From Leucobacter musarum subsp. musarum (GTDB lineage: Bacteria > Actinomycetota > Actinomycetes > Actinomycetales > Microbacteriaceae), in assembly GCF_001273845.1 (NCBI RefSeq), contig NZ_JHBW01000069.1:62001-126000 (forward strand): a stretch of DNA of 64,000 bases, given 5' to 3'. The translations under genes were made by a program, and so were the position numbers. Below are positions 17,102 through 63,613 of the stretch, piece by piece; within the stretch, counting starts at the first letter, position 1, and each line of letters starts with the position of its first letter. Below the pieces are notes generated by a model. The model was not told the DNA's origin. It made no database searches and was given only the letters and a program-made list of their open reading frames with translations.

Positions 17102-17144
17102 CCTGTTCTCGCTGCGGCTGCGGCGGCGCTTTCCCCTTGACGCA

Positions 17145-17215
17145 GAATCGGTGTCACTTTGTGTAGTTTTCGGGCTCGATTTCGCGGCCTCAACTGCAAA
17201 AAGTGACACCGATTC
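17145..17215. repeat. 71-nt palindromic element, family A, copy 1
   Basis: Two 24-nt arms (17145-17168 and 17192-17215) pair at 22 of 24 positions; the first 16 (GAATCGGTGTCACTTT) are identical. A 23-nt spacer lies between them. The left arm recurs in inverted orientation at 18464-18487, on the far side of the nuclease-like gene, including an exact 22-bp match (17147-17168). It could act as a terminator for the ATPase gene, but the fixed length and the second copy suggest a repeat element. Confidence 0.85.
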
Positions 17216-17393
17216 GCGCGGGAGGCGGATCGGGCGGACGGAACGGCCGGCCGGGCGCTGAACTGGGCCGGGCGGCGCATCGGCGATCGACGTTGTCCGT
17301 GCACAGCGAGCGCTTGCGCGTTCGCTCTCCACAGATTCGTCGCAGGCTCCGCCTGCGTCGTTTCCCGCGACCTCGCCCCGCCAGGCTGGCCGT

Positions 17394-18335
17394 ATGCGGC
17401 AATCAACAGCGACCCCGGTCCCGCCCGGCGCGCACTCCGTCGGCGCTCTCCACAGCGCCGGAGTGAGCCGCGGCCGCCTCCGGTCTCCGCGCCTCGCTCG
17501 AGTGGCGACCGGGCTTGTCGTGACGCCCGACAGCGGGCTCGATCTCTCCGTGTATCGCGACCGATGCCTGGCGGTCGGCAGGTCGCTAGCCACCGGCAGA
17601 TTCACTTCGCGCCGCTCCGCCGCCGCGATCCTGCGCATTCCCGCCCCACCCCCTCGACATCGCGAGGTCGAAGTCGGAGTCATCACGCCAGCCCGCGCTC
17701 CAAGACGATCCGGCCTGCTCGGACATCGCGTACGGCCCGACTTGCTCAAGTTCGAGTCGCGTGATGGGGTAGCGATTCCGAGCCCCGCAGACGTGTGGTG
17801 TCAGCTCAGCGCGGTGCTCGGCTTCGAAGCCCTGGTCGTCGCTGGAGACGCCATTGTGTCGGGCAGTCGCATCCTGAGTAGCGGTGGGCAGCGCACCCCC
17901 GAGCTCGCAACCCTCGATCAGCTTCGCGCAGCCCACGGTCAGCATTCCCGAGGTACCGGCACTCCGCTCCGCTCGCGAGCATTGGAGGCGGTCCGGGCTG
18001 GCGTGGATTCACCCCAGGAGAGTCGACTGCGCCTGATGCTCGTGGGAGCCGGCTACCCGGAACCCACCGTCGACTGCGCCGTGGCAGTGATGATCGACGG
18101 TCGACATCGCGAGTTGCATGTCGACCTGGGATACCCCGAACTGCGCATCGCAATCGAGTACGAGGGCGTGCACCACTTCACCGATCCGCGGCAGGTGCGG
18201 CTCGACCTCCGGCGCATCGAAGTGCTGCACGAGCACGGGTGGCGGGTCATCAGGGTCACCGCCGCGGATCTCCGCGATCCGAGCAACCTGCTCTCCAGAA
18301 TCGCGAAGGCCTTCGCCGATGCGCTCGCGCGCTGA
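17394..18335 (+). CDS. DUF559-type endonuclease-fold protein
   Basis: This 313-aa protein of unknown function has a C-terminal DUF559/Vsr-like restriction-endonuclease fold: 'SPQESRLRLMLVGAGYPEPTVD', then 'HVDLGYPELRIAIEYEG' with the Glu, Asp and Glu-Tyr-Glu positions expected of a PD-(D/E)XK-like site, and 'LHEHGWRVIRVTAADL'. The N-terminal half is Arg-rich and less conserved and resembles the AbiEi-type DNA-binding region of related actinobacterial proteins. The start is the first ATG (17394); no clear ribosome site is visible. It lies between two inverted copies of a 71-nt palindrome and interrupts the amino-sugar region. The protein at 54356-55387 has the same overall type. Confidence 0.75.
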   Translation: MRQSTATPVPPGAHSVGALHSAGVSRGRLRSPRLARVATGLVVTPDSGLDLSVYRDRCLAVGRSLATGRFTSRRSAAAILRIPAPPPRHREVEVGVITPARAPRRSGLLGHRVRPDLLKFESRDGVAIPSPADVWCQLSAVLGFEALVVAGDAIVSGSRILSSGGQRTPELATLDQLRAAHGQHSRGTGTPLRSRALEAVRAGVDSPQESRLRLMLVGAGYPEPTVDCAVAVMIDGRHRELHVDLGYPELRIAIEYEGVHHFTDPRQVRLDLRRIEVLHEHGWRVIRVTAADLRDPSNLLSRIAKAFADALAR

Positions 18336-18351
18336 GGCACCCGCCAGCCCT

Positions 18352-18405
18352 CAGCCTTCAGCCTTCAGCCTTCAGCCTTCAGCCTTCAGCCTTCAGCCTT
18401 CAGCC
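18352..18405. repeat. 7-nt tandem repeat (CAGCCTT), 7.7 copies
   Basis: The unit CAGCCTT is repeated seven times plus a partial CAGCC without a mismatch, starting 17 nt after the stop codon of the DUF559-type gene. It is non-coding and perfect, so its copy number probably varies between strains. Confidence 0.95.
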
Positions 18406-18416
18406 ACCAGCCCACC

Positions 18417-18487
18417 GAATCGGGGTCAAAAATTGCAGTCGAAACCGCCTCACACCGCTCAAGAACTACACAAAGTGACACCGATCC
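18417..18487. repeat. 71-nt palindromic element, family A, copy 2 (inverted)
   Basis: This is the same 71-nt unit as at 17145-17215, in opposite orientation. Reversed, it aligns with copy 1 without gaps, with near-identity in the first 24 positions and in the ACTGCAA and CCGATTC parts of the other arm. Its left arm is degraded, so the arms pair at only 15 of 24 positions and it would make a weak terminator. Confidence 0.8.
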
Positions 18488-18631
18488 CGAAAATGAGGGC
18501 AGAAACGGCAGCGGCGGCCAAAGTTACGGCGGAAGCACAGGCCAAAGCCGCGGTGAGTGAGCGAGCGATGCAGCGGCCCCGAACATCCGCGCGGAAAGAA
18601 TATTCCCGCAGGGCTTGCGCAGAATTAGTTC

Positions 18632-38760: not shown

Positions 38761-40389
38761 ATGAGCGAGACCACCGTATTCGTGAACGGCACCGTGATCG
38801 TCGACGCGGCGCGAGCCGTGACGAGCCACGCCGTCGCGTTTTCATCGGGCCGCGTCGCTGCGCTCGGCGCCGACGCGGAGCGGTTGGCAGATCGGCCCGA
38901 CGCGACCGTCATCGATCTCGCCGGCGGCACGCTCGCCCCGGGCATCGGCGACGGCCATGCGCACCCGTTGCTCGGCGGCGTCGAGGCGCTGGGGCCGCAG
39001 GTGCGCGATGCCGCAGACCTCGCCGGCATCCTTGCCGCAGTCGCCGAGTGGAAGGCCGCGAACCCCGACGCCGAGTGGATCATCGGAGCGAGCTACGACG
39101 CCACCTTCGCCGAGGGCGGGCTCTTCGATGCGCGCTGGCTCGACGAAGTGACCGGCGATACCCCCACCATTCTGCGCGCATGGGATTACCACACGGCCTG
39201 GGTCAACAGCGCCGCGCTCGCCGCAGGCGGCATCACGGTAGACACCCCGGATCCCGCGCTCGGCCGCATCGTGCGCCGTGCCGATGGCAGCCCCCTCGGC
39301 ACGCTGCAGGAGGCCGCCGCGAACGACTTCCTCGCCGAGGTCGTGCCGGCGTTCGCAGAGGCGCAGCGACTTGATGCAATCGAGCGCGCCACCCGCGGCT
39401 ATGCAGAGCAGGGCACCACGTGGATCCAGGACGCCTGGGTGGAGCCCGCCGACCTCGAGCTCTACCTCGTCGCGGCCGCGCAGCAGCGCTTGCACACCCG
39501 CGTCAACCTGGCGTTCCGCGCCGACCCGGCGCGCTGGCGCGATCAGGTCGCCGAGTTCGTCGCGGGCCGCAACCGGGTGCGCGGGCTCGAGCACCCGCGA
39601 CTGAGCAGTGAGACGGTCAAGTTCTTCGTCGACGGCGTGATCGAGAGCCACACGGCCGCGTTGATCGACCCGTACGCCGACCGCCCCGACGAGCGCGGCC
39701 TGCCGAACTGGACCGACGCGGAGCTGAACGAGGCCGTCGTCGCCTTCGACGCCGCCGGGTTCCAACTGCACTTGCACGCCATCGGCGACGCGGCCAACCG
39801 CAGCGCACTCGACGCGCTCGCAACGGCCCGCGACACGAACCCGCCGCGCGAACGGCACGACGTCATCGCGCACGTGGCACTGCTCGATCCGGCCGACGTG
39901 GCGCGCTTCGCCGAACTCGGCGTCATCGCGAACTTCGAACCCTACTGGGCGCAGTGCGACGCGGTCATGCGCGACCTCACGATTCCGCATCTCGGCCACC
40001 CGCGCGAGGAGTGGCAGTACCTCATCGGTTCGGTGCATCGCAGCGGTGCGACCATCAGCTTCGGCAGCGATTGGCCGGTGACGACGCGCGATTGGCGCCC
40101 GGCACTCTCGACCGCGATCACCCGACACAGCCACCTCGAGCCCGGCGCAGAGGCTTGGTTGCCCGAAGAACGCCTCACCCCGGGCGACGCGCTTGCCGCC
40201 TACACCTCGGGCATCGCGCGACAGGCGCTCGCGCCCGAGCGCGGCACGCTCGAGGTGGGCCGCGTCGCCGACGCCGCGTGGCTGTCGGCGAACCCGCTCT
40301 CGCTCGCCCCCGAGGCGATCGCCGATCTCGCAGTCAACGGCACCTGGCTGGCCGGCGAGGCGACGTTCCGCAGCCCCACGCACCCCTGA
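38761..40389 (+). CDS. YtcJ-type amidohydrolase of module 1
   Basis: This 542-aa metal-dependent amidohydrolase of the amidohydrolase_3/YtcJ group, which includes N-substituted formamide deformylases, has the HxH metal motif GDGHAHPL, 'DYHTAWVNSAAL', 'SSETVKFFVDGVIESHTAALIDPYAD', 'LHLHAIGDAANRSALDAL' and the late 'ISFGSDWPVTTRD'. No signal peptide is seen. It is followed by an APC permease gene after 47 nt and faces a TetR gene, so it probably hydrolyses an imported amide, carbamate or formamide. The true substrate is unknown. Confidence 0.88.
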   Translation: MSETTVFVNGTVIVDAARAVTSHAVAFSSGRVAALGADAERLADRPDATVIDLAGGTLAPGIGDGHAHPLLGGVEALGPQVRDAADLAGILAAVAEWKAANPDAEWIIGASYDATFAEGGLFDARWLDEVTGDTPTILRAWDYHTAWVNSAALAAGGITVDTPDPALGRIVRRADGSPLGTLQEAAANDFLAEVVPAFAEAQRLDAIERATRGYAEQGTTWIQDAWVEPADLELYLVAAAQQRLHTRVNLAFRADPARWRDQVAEFVAGRNRVRGLEHPRLSSETVKFFVDGVIESHTAALIDPYADRPDERGLPNWTDAELNEAVVAFDAAGFQLHLHAIGDAANRSALDALATARDTNPPRERHDVIAHVALLDPADVARFAELGVIANFEPYWAQCDAVMRDLTIPHLGHPREEWQYLIGSVHRSGATISFGSDWPVTTRDWRPALSTAITRHSHLEPGAEAWLPEERLTPGDALAAYTSGIARQALAPERGTLEVGRVADAAWLSANPLSLAPEAIADLAVNGTWLAGEATFRSPTHP

Positions 40390-40436
40390 CCCACCCCGAC
40401 TGCAGTCCCGTCATCGCACGAATCAAAGGAGACATC

Positions 40437-41849
40437 GTGAGCGACACCACCCAACCGCATCTCAAGCGGGCACTCGGCCTCACCGGCCTGACCCTCTTCG
40501 GGGTCACCTACATGACCGTCATCACCGTGTTCACGACGTACGGCATCGTGAACCAGGTCACCGACGGCCATCTCCCCTCGGCATACATCGTGGCGGTCGT
40601 CACCATGCTGTTCACGGCGGCGAGCTACGGCGCGATGGTGAAGCGGTACCCGGTTGCCGGATCCGCCTACACCTACTCGCAGCAGTCGTTCGGCGGCGCA
40701 GCCGGCTTCTTGACCGGCTGGGTCATGCTGCTCGACTACCTGTTCATCCCGATGATCAACTTCATGCTCATCGGCATCTACCTGAACACCCAGTTCCCCG
40801 CGGTGCCGATCTGGGTGTTCACGCTCGTCGCGCTGCTGCTCGTACTGGTGTTCAACATCCTTGGCATCACGCTCGTGAACAAGATCAACTTCGCGATCAT
40901 CGCGCTGTCGGTCGTGCTCGTCGTGGTCTTCGTCGCGCTCGCGTTCAAGCAGTACTTCGGCGGCGACCAGTCGGTCAGCCTGATCGAACCGTTCACCTTC
41001 GGCGAGGGCGGCATCGGTGCCGTCGCCTCGGGTGCGGCGATCCTCGCTCTCTCCTTCCTCGGGTTTGACGCGGTGTCGACGCTCTCCGAGGAGGCAAAGC
41101 AGCCCCGCCGCGACATTCCCCGCGCGATCGTGCTGTCGACGCTGCTCGGCGGTTTCTTCTTCATCCTCGTCTCGTGGGCCGGTGCGCTCGCGTTCGCTCC
41201 CGATTGGGCGACACTCAGCGACGCACAGATCGACGCGGCCGGCACCACCGTCATGGACAGCTTCGGCGTCAGCTGGTTCACCTCGTTCTTCGTCGCGATC
41301 TACGTGGTCGGCGCGTTCGGCTCGGGCATGACTGGCCAGGTCTCGGTGTCGCGCATCCTCTACGCGATGGGCCGCGACGGCATGCTGCCGAAGCCGCTCT
41401 CGCGCCTGCACCAGCGCTTCGGCACCCCCGTGGTCGCCGCCTGCATCGTGTCGATTTTCGCCCTGTCGGCGCTCTTCCTGTCGCTCGACACCGTCGCCTT
41501 CATGATCAGCTTCGGCGCGCTCGCCGCGTTCGCCATGGTCAACCTGTCGGTGATCCGCACCTACCTGTTCCCGAAGAACGGCGCGCGACCGCAGGGCGCG
41601 TGGGCCTGGATCCGCTACGGCCTCTTCCCGCTCATCGGCTTCGCGCTGACGATCTGGCTGTGGACCTCGCTGCAGCCGCTCACCTGGTTGGTCGGCGCGA
41701 TCTGGCTGGCCGTTGGCGTGGTCATCATCGCGATCGTCACCGGCGGGTTCCGTCGCGCGGTACCGAAGATGGACTTCTCGGAGAGTGACCCCAGCACCCA
41801 GCAGATCGACCAGCTGGCCGAGGACTACCCGCTGGAGCCGCGCGCGTAG
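40437..41849 (+). CDS. APC-family amino acid/amine permease of module 1
   Basis: This 470-aa transporter of the amino acid-polyamine-organocation superfamily has about 12 membrane segments, 'KRALGLTGLTLFGVTYMTVITVFTTYGIV' at the start, 'VKRYPVAGSAYTYSQQSFGGAAGFLTGWVMLLDYLFIPM', and 'LSFLGFDAVSTLSEEAKQPRRDIPRAI'. The GTG at 40437 has AAAGGAGA 4 nt upstream. It is very similar along its whole length to the permease at 42898-44352. It should bring in the substrate of the preceding amidohydrolase. Confidence 0.92.
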   Translation: MSDTTQPHLKRALGLTGLTLFGVTYMTVITVFTTYGIVNQVTDGHLPSAYIVAVVTMLFTAASYGAMVKRYPVAGSAYTYSQQSFGGAAGFLTGWVMLLDYLFIPMINFMLIGIYLNTQFPAVPIWVFTLVALLLVLVFNILGITLVNKINFAIIALSVVLVVVFVALAFKQYFGGDQSVSLIEPFTFGEGGIGAVASGAAILALSFLGFDAVSTLSEEAKQPRRDIPRAIVLSTLLGGFFFILVSWAGALAFAPDWATLSDAQIDAAGTTVMDSFGVSWFTSFFVAIYVVGAFGSGMTGQVSVSRILYAMGRDGMLPKPLSRLHQRFGTPVVAACIVSIFALSALFLSLDTVAFMISFGALAAFAMVNLSVIRTYLFPKNGARPQGAWAWIRYGLFPLIGFALTIWLWTSLQPLTWLVGAIWLAVGVVIIAIVTGGFRRAVPKMDFSESDPSTQQIDQLAEDYPLEPRA

Positions 41850-41904
41850 CGCGTCCGGCCCGGCGCCCCACCGGCGCCGCCCGCGTTGCCTGCTTCTGCA
41901 TCTC

Positions 41905-41988
41905 CGCCGAGCCCCTCCTTTCTCACCGATCCCCTTCGAACTGCGCACGCAGAACGCAGGGGCTGGGCAAGATCGGAGGGGCTCGGCG
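41905..41988. repeat. 84-nt palindromic element, family B, solo copy
   Basis: The terminal arms CGCCGAGCCCCTCC (41905-41918) and its complement (41975-41988) are perfect, and the inner parts pair imperfectly. Length and internal register match the two family-B copies at 54167-54250 and 55393-55476. It lies between the convergent APC permease and TetR genes, so it may also serve as a bidirectional terminator. No nuclease-like gene adjoins this copy. Confidence 0.85.
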
Positions 41989-42047
41989 ATTTCCGCGTCG
42001 CAGGCAGGACGCGGGCACGGGCAGGGCGCAGGCCGCACCGCGCGGCG

Positions 42048-54139: not shown

Positions 54140-54166
54140 CGCCCCGCTGGCTCCCGGTGCTTCTTT

Positions 54167-54250
54167 CGTCGAGCCCCTCTCAAGTCACCCAAACCCTCTT
54201 TTCTGCCCGCGCATTTGGCAGGGGTTCGGCAACTTTGGAGGGGCTCGCGG
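54167..54250. repeat. 84-nt palindromic element, family B, left copy
   Basis: Terminal GAGCCCCTC (54171-54179) pairs with 54238-54246, with further imperfect pairing inside. It has exactly the same length and internal spacing as the copies at 41905-41988 and 55393-55476, and about two thirds of its bases match the latter when that copy is inverted. It lies between the Nudix gene and the second DUF559-type gene. Confidence 0.85.
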
Positions 54251-54355
54251 TCGCCGGTGAGCTTGTAATACGGCGGCGCCGACGAAGCGCTCACAGGCGC
54301 CGCAGCTCCCTGATTCATCCACATTCTGCGAATTCAGACAATGGAGGCTTTCGCA

Positions 54356-55387
54356 GTGCGATTCACTCGGACGATGGAGGCACCACACCGCATCGCACTC
54401 ATCGAGGCTTCGATCACTTCAATCGGCGCACATCTCGATGCTGGAGTTTCTCGCCGCGAACTCGCACGGCTGCTCCATGCAGGGGTGTGGCATCGAGTCG
54501 GGAAGGGATACGTCGTTGAAATGACGACGTGGGCAAACTGGCGCGTGGAACAGCGCCACCTTGCCCGCGTGATCGTGGCGGCAAAGGAGTCCCGTGGAGT
54601 CCCAATCTTTTCGCATCAATCAGCCGCGGCCCTCCTGGGTTTGCCATTCTGGGGCTGCACCGATTCGCCCCCGCACGTTATTTCATTGTCTGCCCACGGA
54701 CGCAGCGATTCGCTCGTACGCCATGAGCTCGACGTTCCAGAGGGCGACATCACCAAATCTTGGGGGTTCACACACACCACTCCGAACCGCACCCTCGTCG
54801 ACCTGTCGATGCTGTCTCTCGCTCCAGAAAGTCTGGTCGCTACGGCAGACGTCGTGCTCGGGAGGAGTGCACGGTCGGGGCGACATGTTGACAGTGACGC
54901 TGCTGGGCAATGGCACGAAGAGATGGCTGCGCGCACGCTCGCTGCGGCTGGGAAACGCGGAGTTCGATTGCTTCGCACCATCGTTGATTTCGCGGACGCC
55001 CGCGCAGATTCACCCCTCGAGAGCGTCAGTCGCTGGCGTTTTCACGAGTTCAACATTTCTGTCATACCCCAGTTCGAGGTACCCGCACGCAACGGCGGCT
55101 GGTACTTCGTCGATTTCTTTCTCCCCGATCATGGCGTGTTTGGCGAGTGTGATGGACGGACCAAGTATCTCGACCCTGCGCTTCGAGGAAATCTCAGTGT
55201 GGGCCAAATGGTGCTTCAAGAAAAGGATCGCGAAGACTGGGTCGCGGCGACAACGAACAGCCGGTTCATTCGGTGGGGCGCCAGCGAAGCGTCGACCGCA
55301 CAACGCTTCGGCTCCATGCTGACGGCGTTTCGAATCCCATTCACGACCAAGGTCCCTCGTTCTCGATTGTTGACCCATGCGGAATAA
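54356..55387 (+). CDS. AbiEi-like/DUF559-type protein, probable endonuclease fold
   Basis: This 343-aa protein of unknown function has an N-terminal winged helix like AbiEi antitoxins ('ITSIGAHLDAGVSRRELARLLHAGVWHRVGKGYVV') and a middle 'FSHQSAAALLGLPFWG' segment. The C-terminal DUF559/Vsr-like nuclease fold shows 'ADSPLESVSRWRFHEFNI', 'WYFVDFFLPDHGVFGECDGRTKYLDP' and 'LQEKDREDWVAATTNSRFIRW' (conserved Glu, Asp and Glu-x-Asp-Gly). GTG at 54356 with GGAGG 7 nt upstream is the likely start; an ATG at 54341 is possible. The gene is visibly less GC-rich than its neighbours, suggesting transfer, and lies between inverted family-B palindromes. Confidence 0.78.
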   Translation: MRFTRTMEAPHRIALIEASITSIGAHLDAGVSRRELARLLHAGVWHRVGKGYVVEMTTWANWRVEQRHLARVIVAAKESRGVPIFSHQSAAALLGLPFWGCTDSPPHVISLSAHGRSDSLVRHELDVPEGDITKSWGFTHTTPNRTLVDLSMLSLAPESLVATADVVLGRSARSGRHVDSDAAGQWHEEMAARTLAAAGKRGVRLLRTIVDFADARADSPLESVSRWRFHEFNISVIPQFEVPARNGGWYFVDFFLPDHGVFGECDGRTKYLDPALRGNLSVGQMVLQEKDREDWVAATTNSRFIRWGASEASTAQRFGSMLTAFRIPFTTKVPRSRLLTHAE

Positions 55388-55392
55388 ATCAA

Positions 55393-55476
55393 CAGCGACC
55401 CCCTTCTTTCTCGCCGAGTCCCTCCAAAGTTCGCGGGCACTTCAGAGGGGGTCGGCGAGAAAAAAGGGGCTCGGCG
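55393..55476. repeat. 84-nt palindromic element, family B, right copy (inverted)
   Basis: This is the third 84-nt family-B unit, starting 5 nt after the stop of the DUF559-type gene. Positions 4-35 of the unit pair with 50-81 almost fully. Each arm carries two CGA...CCCCT-type motifs 20 nt apart. Compared with the left copy (54167-54250) it aligns best in reverse orientation, including the central TGCCCGCG. Confidence 0.85.
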
Positions 55477-55528
55477 TGGCAGGCGGGCACGCGCGGGACC
55501 AGCGGTGCCGCCGCCGCCAGCCGCCCGC

Positions 55529-56191
55529 CTATGCGTGGGTCGCGGAGTCGTCCGGGAAGACCGTGTCCGTGTCGCCGAGCTGCAGCGCGAGCGCGGTCGC
55601 CTGCGCCGCGTCTTCGAGGTTGAGCGCCCGCCGGTACGCCATCTGCACGTCACCGGCCACGACCGAGCAGCCGTGGTGCTGCATCACGACGCAGTCGTGA
55701 TCGCGCAGCGCATCGCCTGCGGTGTCGGCGAGCTCATCCGTGCCGTTGTGGAAGAAGGGGGTGACCGCGATTTCGCCGAGGTAGTACGCGTGGTCGAGGG
55801 TGAGGCGGCGGATCGGCCGGCCGAGACTGGCCAGCACCACGGCGGTGCGCGGGTGCAGATGCAGCACGCACTCGGCGTCGGGGCGCGCACGGTAGGCGCG
55901 GTGGTGCAGTTTCCACTCGCTCGACGGTTCCGGCCCGACGTCGACGGGTGCACCGGTCTCGTCGTCATCGAGCGTCAGCAGGGCAAAGCTCTCGGGGGTG
56001 AGGCGATCCAGCCAGCTGCCTTTCGCGGTGACCAGGAACTCGCGATCAGACACTCGCACCGACAGGTTGCCGGCGCTCGCCAGCACGAGCCCGCGACCGA
56101 CAGCGTCTCGGCCGACCTCGATCAGTTCGGTGATCAAGCGGGCGCGGTCGCGCACCTGCGGCACGCGGGCTTCGCGCGGGGGGTTACTCAC
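55529..56191 (-). CDS. Class II aldolase/adducin-family protein
   Basis: This 220-aa protein has the class II aldolase fold (FucA/AraD-like), using zinc held by His residues in 'ECVLHLHPRTAVVLASLG' and 'VVMQHHGCSVVAGDV', with the phosphate-binding start 'ASAGNLSVRV' and 'VTAKGSWLDRL'. Members are aldolases, epimerases or dehydratases. Which one this is cannot be told. It overlaps the end of the dGTPase gene by 8 nt and is read in the same direction. Confidence 0.85.
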   Translation of the reverse strand: MSNPPREARVPQVRDRARLITELIEVGRDAVGRGLVLASAGNLSVRVSDREFLVTAKGSWLDRLTPESFALLTLDDDETGAPVDVGPEPSSEWKLHHRAYRARPDAECVLHLHPRTAVVLASLGRPIRRLTLDHAYYLGEIAVTPFFHNGTDELADTAGDALRDHDCVVMQHHGCSVVAGDVQMAYRRALNLEDAAQATALALQLGDTDTVFPDDSATHA

Positions 56192-63411: not shown

Positions 63412-63494
63412 GGCGCCCGCCCTCCTGCGGTGCCCGGCGCCCGGGCACCGCTCTCCGCACCCCGCTCCCCGCGCTCCGCGCCCCCGCCATCCCC

Positions 63495-63565
63495 TCGAAC
63501 GCACCGGTTTCTGCCGAGTGCACCCAATAGACACTGGTGCGCTCGGCAGAAAGTGGTGCGCTCGA
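63495..63565. repeat. Palindromic element, family C (71 nt)
   Basis: Two 30-nt arms (63495-63524 and 63536-63565) pair at 26 of 30 positions around an 11-nt spacer. Each arm carries two CGA..GCACC motifs 20 nt apart, the same layout as the family-B arms, with a shared TTTCT.GCCGAG core. It lies between convergent genes and could also act as a terminator. Confidence 0.85.
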
Positions 63566-63613
63566 CGCAGGGGCGGGGTAAGCAACGCAGCGGCGAGGCT
63601 GAGTGGGTAGCGC

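Follow-up and report, generated by a model that had tools for sequence, protein, structure and literature searches.

A predicted nuclease gene between two copies of a palindrome

The window, by which we refer to the whole stretch of 64,000 nucleotides that was analyzed, lies within contig C98 of a 3.44 Mb genome (designated G000 below). A gene on its forward strand (54341..55387), with a NUDIX gene on one side and a class II aldolase gene in convergent orientation on the other, codes for a 348-aa protein with an AbiEi-like winged helix and a predicted PD-(D/E)XK/Vsr-like nuclease domain. It is bordered on both sides by 86-nt palindromes, to which no strand is assigned and which we term family B: the left one (54166..54251, corresponding to G000:C98:116166-116251) contains four sites of the CGAGCCCCT type, and the right one (55392..55477) is inverted with respect to the left. 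This is the only gene between the two palindromes, and its neighbors code for NUDIX, Aldolase_II and HD domains. The original prediction, made from the letters of the sequence, delimited two units of 84 nt each at 54167-54250 and 55393-55476; these coordinates and lengths are correct, and each unit is indeed palindromic (54/84 and 64/84 positions self-complementary). Its claim of a gapless inverted match also stands, with 56/84 matching positions as against a mean of 22.7 and a maximum of 38 in 5000 shuffles, but the accompanying statement that the units align only when one of them is inverted does not, as they also match directly at 49/84 positions because each unit is itself a palindrome.

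A half-site pattern derived from the units has six matches in the window (0.03 expected), all of which fall inside three family-B palindromes. The third of these is a solitary copy (41904..41989, likewise with no strand assigned), located 55 nt past the end of an ORF at 39954-41849 and absent from the original prediction. The covariance model of the family (R1) scores the left, right and solitary copies at 68.2, 80.7 and 79.8 bits, respectively, all three being among the 13 copies used to build the model and hence matching by construction; their DNA hairpin z-scores are -4.59, -5.61 and -6.26. The low G+C content that had been remarked upon for the enclosed gene is genuine, at 0.596 compared to 0.680 for the window, with 0.3% of 1047-nt windows being as low.

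Domain architecture and conserved residues of the protein

The AbiEi-like winged helix recognized in the original prediction is recovered by a PADLOC AbiEi model (E 9e-11) and by Pfam AbiEi_4 at 18.8 bits, under its 25-bit cut-off; the PADLOC AbiEi models match 45 of the 47 aligned family members. The AlphaFold2 model of the window protein has a mean pLDDT of 91.9, the alignment behind it (A7) including two rows that are in the wrong frame by their coordinates (L256 and L261). The domain limits read from the model place the winged helix at approximately residues 14-60 and the nuclease domain at approximately residues 207-330. In Foldseek searches with this model the top solved match, and the sole one below 0.001, was the AbiEi antitoxin 6y8q (E 3.2e-4), followed by weaker matches to the R2 retrotransposon 9dou (E 0.023), AbaSI (E 0.13-0.18), and the Vsr structures 1cw0 (probability 0.80, E 0.9) and 1vsr (probability 0.75, E 1.5). 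The DUF559/Vsr-like fold that had been proposed for the C-terminal region was sustained in one of its two parts: the window protein has no Pfam match to DUF559, whereas the predicted C-terminal fold moderately resembles those of Vsr/AbaSI-type nucleases.

The helix-strand order of the nuclease core is present in the model, and seven positions are nearly invariant across 140 frame-corrected aligned proteins, nine of which are second copies: E227 (140), Q244 (140), D258 (139), E269 (138), D271 (139), K275 (137) and R297 (139). (Another alignment, A2, includes L081, which like L085 was read in the wrong frame.) The C-terminal domain probably holds the core of a PD-(D/E)XK/Vsr-fold nuclease with its acidic residues and lysine conserved, the fold match itself being moderate. 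Variability is distributed unevenly along the protein, with the N-terminal helices (2.6-3.3 bits) being among the most variable parts, residues 185-201 also reaching 2.8 bits, and the nuclease core staying at 1.6-2.2 bits. Private targets would call for a conserved cutting domain together with a reading head that diverges, and we posit that the head reads the site.

With Pfam, the window protein yields AbiEi_4 and neither a nuclease family nor a transposase, and none of the 47 members matches a transposase family at E <= 0.1. MTES_1575 was weakly matched by 2 of these 47 (best E 0.034), and the window protein has no match to DUF559 or MTES_1575. NCBIfam gave scattered single matches, a profile search of solved structures gave nothing useful, and a search of the named genomes with the window protein alone as query detected no relative.

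The association of the gene family with palindromes

Homologues are detectable at E <= 1e-5 in 44 of the 54 genomes of the genus. From these we assembled a genus set of 92 loci, one of them entered twice, of which 88 have flanks long enough for comparison; two places in G043 and one fragment in G025 were left out. A second set of 50 loci from named genomes (49 testable) shares eight genes with the first, for example L053/L227 with 100% protein identity. Together, the 142 loci, which come from Leucobacter, Microbacterium and other actinomycetes, include nine second copies (eight present in both collections and one fetched twice) and so represent 133 distinct loci.

When the left flank of each gene was scored against its right flank, 45 of 88 genus genes reached a score of at least 30, as against 15 of 1056 mispaired flanks; the window gene, with a score of 29, falls just short of this cut. 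In the named genomes 43 of 49 genes reached it (37 of 41 once the eight genes shared with the genus set are removed), the null of 31/980 being partly inflated by orthologous loci. When flanks were taken from the ORFs and duplicates discarded, 68 of 127 genes reached the cut as against 12 of 1270 mispaired controls, 51 of the 127 distinct genes scoring below 28; since upstream starts were chosen, the ORF-based flanks cut some palindromes, thereby reducing the count in the named set to 24/40 from 37/41. The same test on the 44 window ORFs with 200 aa or more gave a score of 30 or above for a single one, namely the other nuclease gene (17394-18335).

A direct search for palindromes of at least 24/38 within 450 nt of the gene succeeded on one or both sides for 109 of the 133 distinct loci and on both for 59, whereas control windows of equal size, of which each locus comprises two, contained one in 22 of 486 cases. 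The earlier surmise that two such cases in 64 kb make chance less likely is upheld, and the layout is far more general. Chance or low complexity as the source of the palindromes is ruled out by the mispaired-flank, shuffle, far-window and other-gene controls, and the link between gene and palindrome is strong. The inverted arrangement of the flanking copies holds for the window gene but is not the rule: among 82 genes (six being second copies of a gene), which also served for the comparison of palindrome and protein identity below, 28 have direct and 12 inverted copies, with 42 ambiguous.

The window genome itself holds several such genes. Two more homologues (L002 and L003) and three DUF559-type genes (L004, L007 and L005, which is the gene at 17 kb) are each accompanied by a palindrome of different sequence; no palindrome was seen at the weak matches L006 and L008. 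The strong palindrome of L002/L046 on contig C116 is present on a single side. A solitary palindrome close to the end of the window (approximately 63487-63573) resembles the pair around the family gene L003/L047 on contig C93, which ends approximately 120 nt past the center of the palindrome that follows this gene. Such repeats may therefore break short-read assemblies and lower the counts obtained from draft genomes.

A shared scaffold with gene-specific sites

Grouping the proteins at 60% identity gave 95 clusters, 79 of which have a flanking palindrome, for a total of 158 arms. Most palindromes consist of four 12-nt sites in the orientation + + - - with an exact 19-nt spacing, each site often starting with CGA(G) and continuing with 8 gene-specific nucleotides. 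This period is evident in the self-match of 12-mers within an arm, which averages 8.85/12 at an offset of 19 and 3.4-5.1 at all other offsets from 10 to 30; a pair of sites matching at 8/12 or better was found in 95 of 158 arms, with a null of 144/4000. The trinucleotide C/T-G-A occurs at -39 and -20 from the center in 67 and 72 of the 158 arms, the next best position having 27; hence, given these counts and that of the site pairs, the scaffold is not universal. Arms aligned at their centers have little in common beyond the CGA(G) at these two positions, and the 8-nt part after the tag agrees at 5.30/8 positions within an arm as opposed to 2.31/8 between genes. Most palindromes thus set one private site four times into a frame that they share.

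Thirteen family-B copies of G000 display 38 two-sided compensating changes compared to 21.1 in shuffled sets, a value reached by none of 500 shuffles, though two of five measures of covariation do not clearly stand out, being attained in 33 and 163 of the 500. Single strands of three family-B copies fold strongly (z-scores of -4.6 to -6.3). Both the compensating changes and the folding fit a hairpin or cruciform, and symmetric repair of palindromes could also produce them.

Dispersed copies and the cognate gene

Copy numbers according to the family-B model are 15 for G000, 19 for G024 and 10 for G009, the three genomes that encode the nearest B proteins, in each case at the same NUDIX-aldolase site; the 13 copies of G000 on which the model was built match by construction. 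Elsewhere it has 1 to 6 matches in 8 genomes and none in 43 of the 54. Some of these lesser matches have a local partner: one in G017 flanks that genome's own gene L061, those in G001 resemble, by eye, the palindromes belonging to the local gene L121, and in G010, a fragmented assembly, one match out of six is of the third family considered below, the other B-like matches having no identified cognate gene.

A second family (R2) has 17, 15 and 17 copies in G006, G023 and G049, the genomes with the corresponding gene, the model having been trained on copies that include the flanking ones of these three genomes, which match by construction. Fewer matches were found in eleven other genomes and none in 40 of the 54. 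Among the eleven, G033 (13) and G022 (7) have matches that include palindromes beside their own family genes, G042 (4) and G045 (3, another fragmented assembly) have no known partner gene, and seven genomes have one match each. The exact motif of a third family occurs 7 times in G009 and 5 times in G010, the pair of genomes in which the orthologous gene is present, with three matches in two further genomes, which by eye lie outside the four-site scaffold, none in 50 genomes, and none in the control. Across the 54 genomes, all three families thus have more repeats where the gene is present, some of the low-number matches being without explanation.

Near-identical third-family palindromes also stand 1.02 kb apart, at approximately 1576 and 2600 of L299 (G009:C1:354500-359000), with a similar arrangement in G010 (L303); a tblastn search found no family gene between the paired palindromes of L299. 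The positions of 31 family-B copies, out of 46 found in four genomes, were classified with crude gene calls based on codon-position G+C: 18 are in convergent gaps, 8 in tandem ones and 2 in divergent ones, and the remaining 3 fall within crude ORFs.

Inheritance and co-divergence of gene and repeat

Palindrome and protein co-vary, in that 14 of 17 pairs of genes with a protein identity of at least 0.70 share their palindrome at a score of at least 25 (8 of 11 without the six pairs that represent one gene in two collections), compared to 2 of 13 pairs at 0.60-0.70 and 0 of 3291 below 0.60, six of the latter being shared at a laxer score of 20. As most of these close pairs represent orthologous genes at a common locus, the pattern is one of co-divergence through descent and does not prove matching. 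A relationship in which palindromes become gradually more similar as protein identity rises was rejected (rank correlation 0.075, reached by 1 of 200 permutations), the weakness of the correlation reflecting that palindromes are unrelated below approximately 60% identity; when the correlation was computed by protein segment, no single part stood out. The original prediction held that each gene has its own repeat, and counted a lack of such co-variation, or of any relative with the neighboring genes and without the block, against it. The palindromes are indeed gene-specific in sequence, and neither result was encountered.

Close homologues are mostly syntenic, which rules out transposition of the whole block as its usual mode. 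The outer flanks of 55 distinct-gene pairs with at least 60% identity are homologous on both sides in 41 cases, on one side in 12 and on none in 2, both of the latter involving a gene at a contig end; for 137 pairs at 50-60% identity the corresponding numbers are 64, 23 and 50. In 25 pairs with less than 66% protein identity, the best-matching outer-flank proteins are nonetheless at least 90% identical on both sides, and at the site of the window block the B proteins of three species are 46-58% identical although the position is common. The gene is therefore mostly inherited vertically, with the repeats coming and going, and the combination of shared flanks with repeat sharing tied to identity indicates that gene and repeat change together at a fixed place. 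As a correction to the original prediction, which had mobility among the possible mechanisms, the block is less mobile in its behavior than the solitary palindromes. The aldolase gene beside the block (L048 versus window 55529-56191) has 88.5% DNA identity between G000 and G024, compared to 74% for the NUDIX gene and 77% for the dgt-like gene, which marks an exchange tract adjoining the block even though the B proteins of these two genomes are just 58% identical.

A relative with the neighboring genes and no block does exist. G002 has no B protein at E <= 1e-5, and 51 nt separate its NUDIX gene from the aldolase gene; it has two B palindromes left, both orthologous to G009 copies and one also to a G000 copy. 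At two further solitary sites a palindrome is common to G000 and G009 and there is none in G002; at one of these G000 also has an extra segment of approximately 2 kb. At the site 41904-41989, the palindrome is of family B in G000 and in G009 carries the motif of that genome's other gene L081; G002 has neither of these, an unrelated hairpin being seen there by eye. In a small tree, four of five segments place G002 beside G009, one of the four, the aldolase segment, being disturbed by the exchange; the dgt-like segment groups G000 with G002. The simplest reading is that G002 lost the gene and its repeats decayed, and that two families reached one site separately. At the L041 site only one flank is in common between the genomes, and in seven block-free genomes with a readable NUDIX-aldolase gap the best palindrome scores 18-21, none reaching 24/38.

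A proposed palindrome-nuclease unit and its alternatives

We consider it reasonably probable that gene and palindromes together form a palindrome-nuclease unit, which would function in the manner of a REP/RAYT pair with unrelated proteins. The sequences themselves show palindromes specific to each gene, a scaffold that most of these share, conserved nuclease residues, a concentration of dispersed copies where the cognate gene is present, and a varied occupancy of orthologous sites; that the protein binds, cuts and copies the palindrome, and that the nuclease causes its spread, we infer, the latter being the best reading of the copy-number and site data. Under this proposal, the AbiEi-like winged helix would read a 12-nt site, commonly composed of CGA(G) and a gene-specific 8 nt, and four such sites at a 19-nt spacing would make up one 86-nt palindrome. 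The PD-(D/E)XK/Vsr-like nuclease would act on this palindrome, probably in the form of a hairpin or cruciform during replication, and over time its action may spread palindromes and keep them in intergenic regions, chiefly where genes end. The gene for the nuclease would itself stay at one locus between two copies and be inherited mostly vertically; upon its loss the repeat population would decay, and as the winged helix diverges the repeat sequence would diverge along with it. Counting against this explanation is the lack of a readable clean insertion boundary or target duplication at any of the compared sites, while the inference of gene loss in G002 has to contend with a small tree whose segments conflict. 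The copy numbers of 10-19 are also far under the 69-235 REPINs per E. coli genome given in PMC8049555. On the same side stand the flank scores below the cut, that of the window gene among them, the arms that lack the scaffold, the two covariation measures that do not stand out, the one-sided palindrome of L002/L046, and the matches in G010, G042 and G045 with no identified cognate gene.

Several alternatives account for parts of the data. The AbiEi-like region could be a transcription factor, with the flanking palindromes as its operators, the solitary copies as regulated or transcript-end sites, and the nuclease aiding transcript or DNA processing: the AbiEi of Streptococcus agalactiae represses its own promoter via inverted repeats (PMC3985639), the palindromes are close to the gene on both sides, and the 8 of 31 copies in tandem gaps lie where there is one promoter. 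Yet with 18 of the 31 family-B copies between convergent genes and 2 in divergent gaps, with site occupancy varying among related species to the extent of different families at one site, and with a near-complete conservation of nuclease residues that regulation alone does not require, we hold such a regulon to be unlikely. Nor do the strong hairpins, many of them between convergent genes, have to be more than ordinary bidirectional terminators or hairpins that happen to sit at gene ends; but gene-specific sequences, a 19-nt period of sites in most arms and a copy number that tracks one gene would all be unexpected of terminators, and G002 has, by eye, an unrelated hairpin at the 41.9-kb site, making this the least probable of the alternatives and one to which we give hardly any weight.

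Two other readings place selfish or defensive behavior in the gene itself. In a homing-type gene drive the nuclease would cut a solitary palindrome in a recipient and the gene would be copied in by repair on the palindrome flanks, for which two similar repeats around the gene, more often direct than inverted (28 versus 12, with 42 ambiguous), and the elevated identity of the aldolase gene relative to the NUDIX and dgt-like genes, as a sign of exchange, may be adduced. This appears quite improbable in the face of the 41 of 55 close pairs with homologous outer flanks on both sides and 12 with one, the 46-58% identity of the B proteins at their common position in three species, and the seven readable NUDIX-aldolase gaps in which no palindrome attains 24/38. 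A locus for defense or of toxin-antitoxin type, akin to AbiE, in which the palindromes serve as operator or self-mark, would agree with the AbiEi models matching 45 of 47 members and with the fast divergence of the protein relative to its neighbors (as in the 25 pairs with flank proteins at least 90% identical on both sides). The window block, however, is a single gene between NUDIX and class II aldolase genes and a dispersed population of palindromes is not known to be part of AbiE, so that we regard this as very improbable, more so than homing.

Relationship to known systems and implications

The nearest known kind to the palindrome-nuclease unit proposed here are the REPtrons and TIRtrons, whose defining transposase is absent from our proteins; in these the enzyme is a HUH/tyrosine transposase (PMC3733652), and the RAYTs are single-copy, vertically inherited genes with more REPINs where the gene is present (PMC8049555). 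The resemblance extends to a mostly vertical gene flanked by its own palindromes, dispersed extragenic palindromes in several families, more copies in the presence of the gene, and a short tag, which is GTAG in REPs and often CGA(G) here. Unlike REP/RAYT, our family has no HUH/tyrosine (Y1) transposase, its structural model matching AbiEi and, weakly, Vsr/AbaSI and R2-retrotransposon chains; its repeats are 86-nt units with four sites at 19 nt rather than GTAG-tagged REPs of 20-40 nt; and its hosts are actinomycetes, with lower copy numbers.

With the AbiEi antitoxins of the type IV system AbiE, the family shares the N-terminal winged helix and the region following it, as seen in the match to 6y8q (E 3.2e-4), and possibly inverted-repeat binding, known for AbiEi at its own promoter (PMC3985639). 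It differs in having a predicted C-terminal nuclease domain and palindromes that are both flanking and dispersed in the genome, and no adjacent AbiEii nucleotidyltransferase toxin gene is present at the window locus. Likeness to the MTES_1575/DUF559/Vsr-like domains is seen in the weak MTES_1575 profile and Vsr Foldseek matches, MTES_1575 having been described as a Vsr-type nuclease that occurs in fusion with HEPN and winged-helix domains (PMC3710099); the window protein differs in having no Pfam nuclease match, and the palindrome association is not seen in the available part of PMC3710099. The EDxHD/Vsr-fold homing endonucleases have a related nuclease fold and possibly a selfish life style. 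Unlike these, the block described here stays at one locus, and the dispersed part is the palindrome and not the gene.

Among the matches listed in a search of the open-access literature, to which most subscription papers and all preprints were outside, no title or start of an abstract pairs such palindromes with AbiEi or DUF559 proteins. The palindrome-nuclease association is real, general and, within this search, undescribed. We offer more tentatively, as a possibility that we would not yet favor, the broader proposal that actinomycetes harbor REP-like mobile palindromes run by an AbiEi/PD-(D/E)XK nuclease, with a modular, re-targetable 8-nt code in a four-site, 19-nt scaffold, and that proteins of the present type, currently taken for AbiEi antitoxins or endonuclease-domain proteins, are repeat-spreading enzymes. 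If true, this would be a second, independently evolved answer to the REP/RAYT problem, in which a chromosomal nuclease keeps a population of palindromes; it would account for a set of intergenic repeats in actinomycete genomes and give a testable job to a widespread protein type that matches AbiEi models. The private DNA target of each enzyme would then be readable directly from its flanks and, as a candidate target adjoins each gene, dozens of protein/DNA-site pairs are at hand for working out the recognition code.

A second class of nuclease genes with private palindromes

DUF559/MTES_1575-type genes form a second class (17394-18335 in the window, L004 and L007) with private palindromes on both sides, the window block of this class spanning 17141-18490. 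The matches of the gene at 17394-18335 to DUF559/MTES_1575 are below the curated cut-offs. By eye, the palindromes of this class follow a different plan, namely one long stem with a loop. Directly after the 17-kb nuclease gene, at approximately 18349-18407, there is a short array of 7-nt repeats (CAGCCTT).
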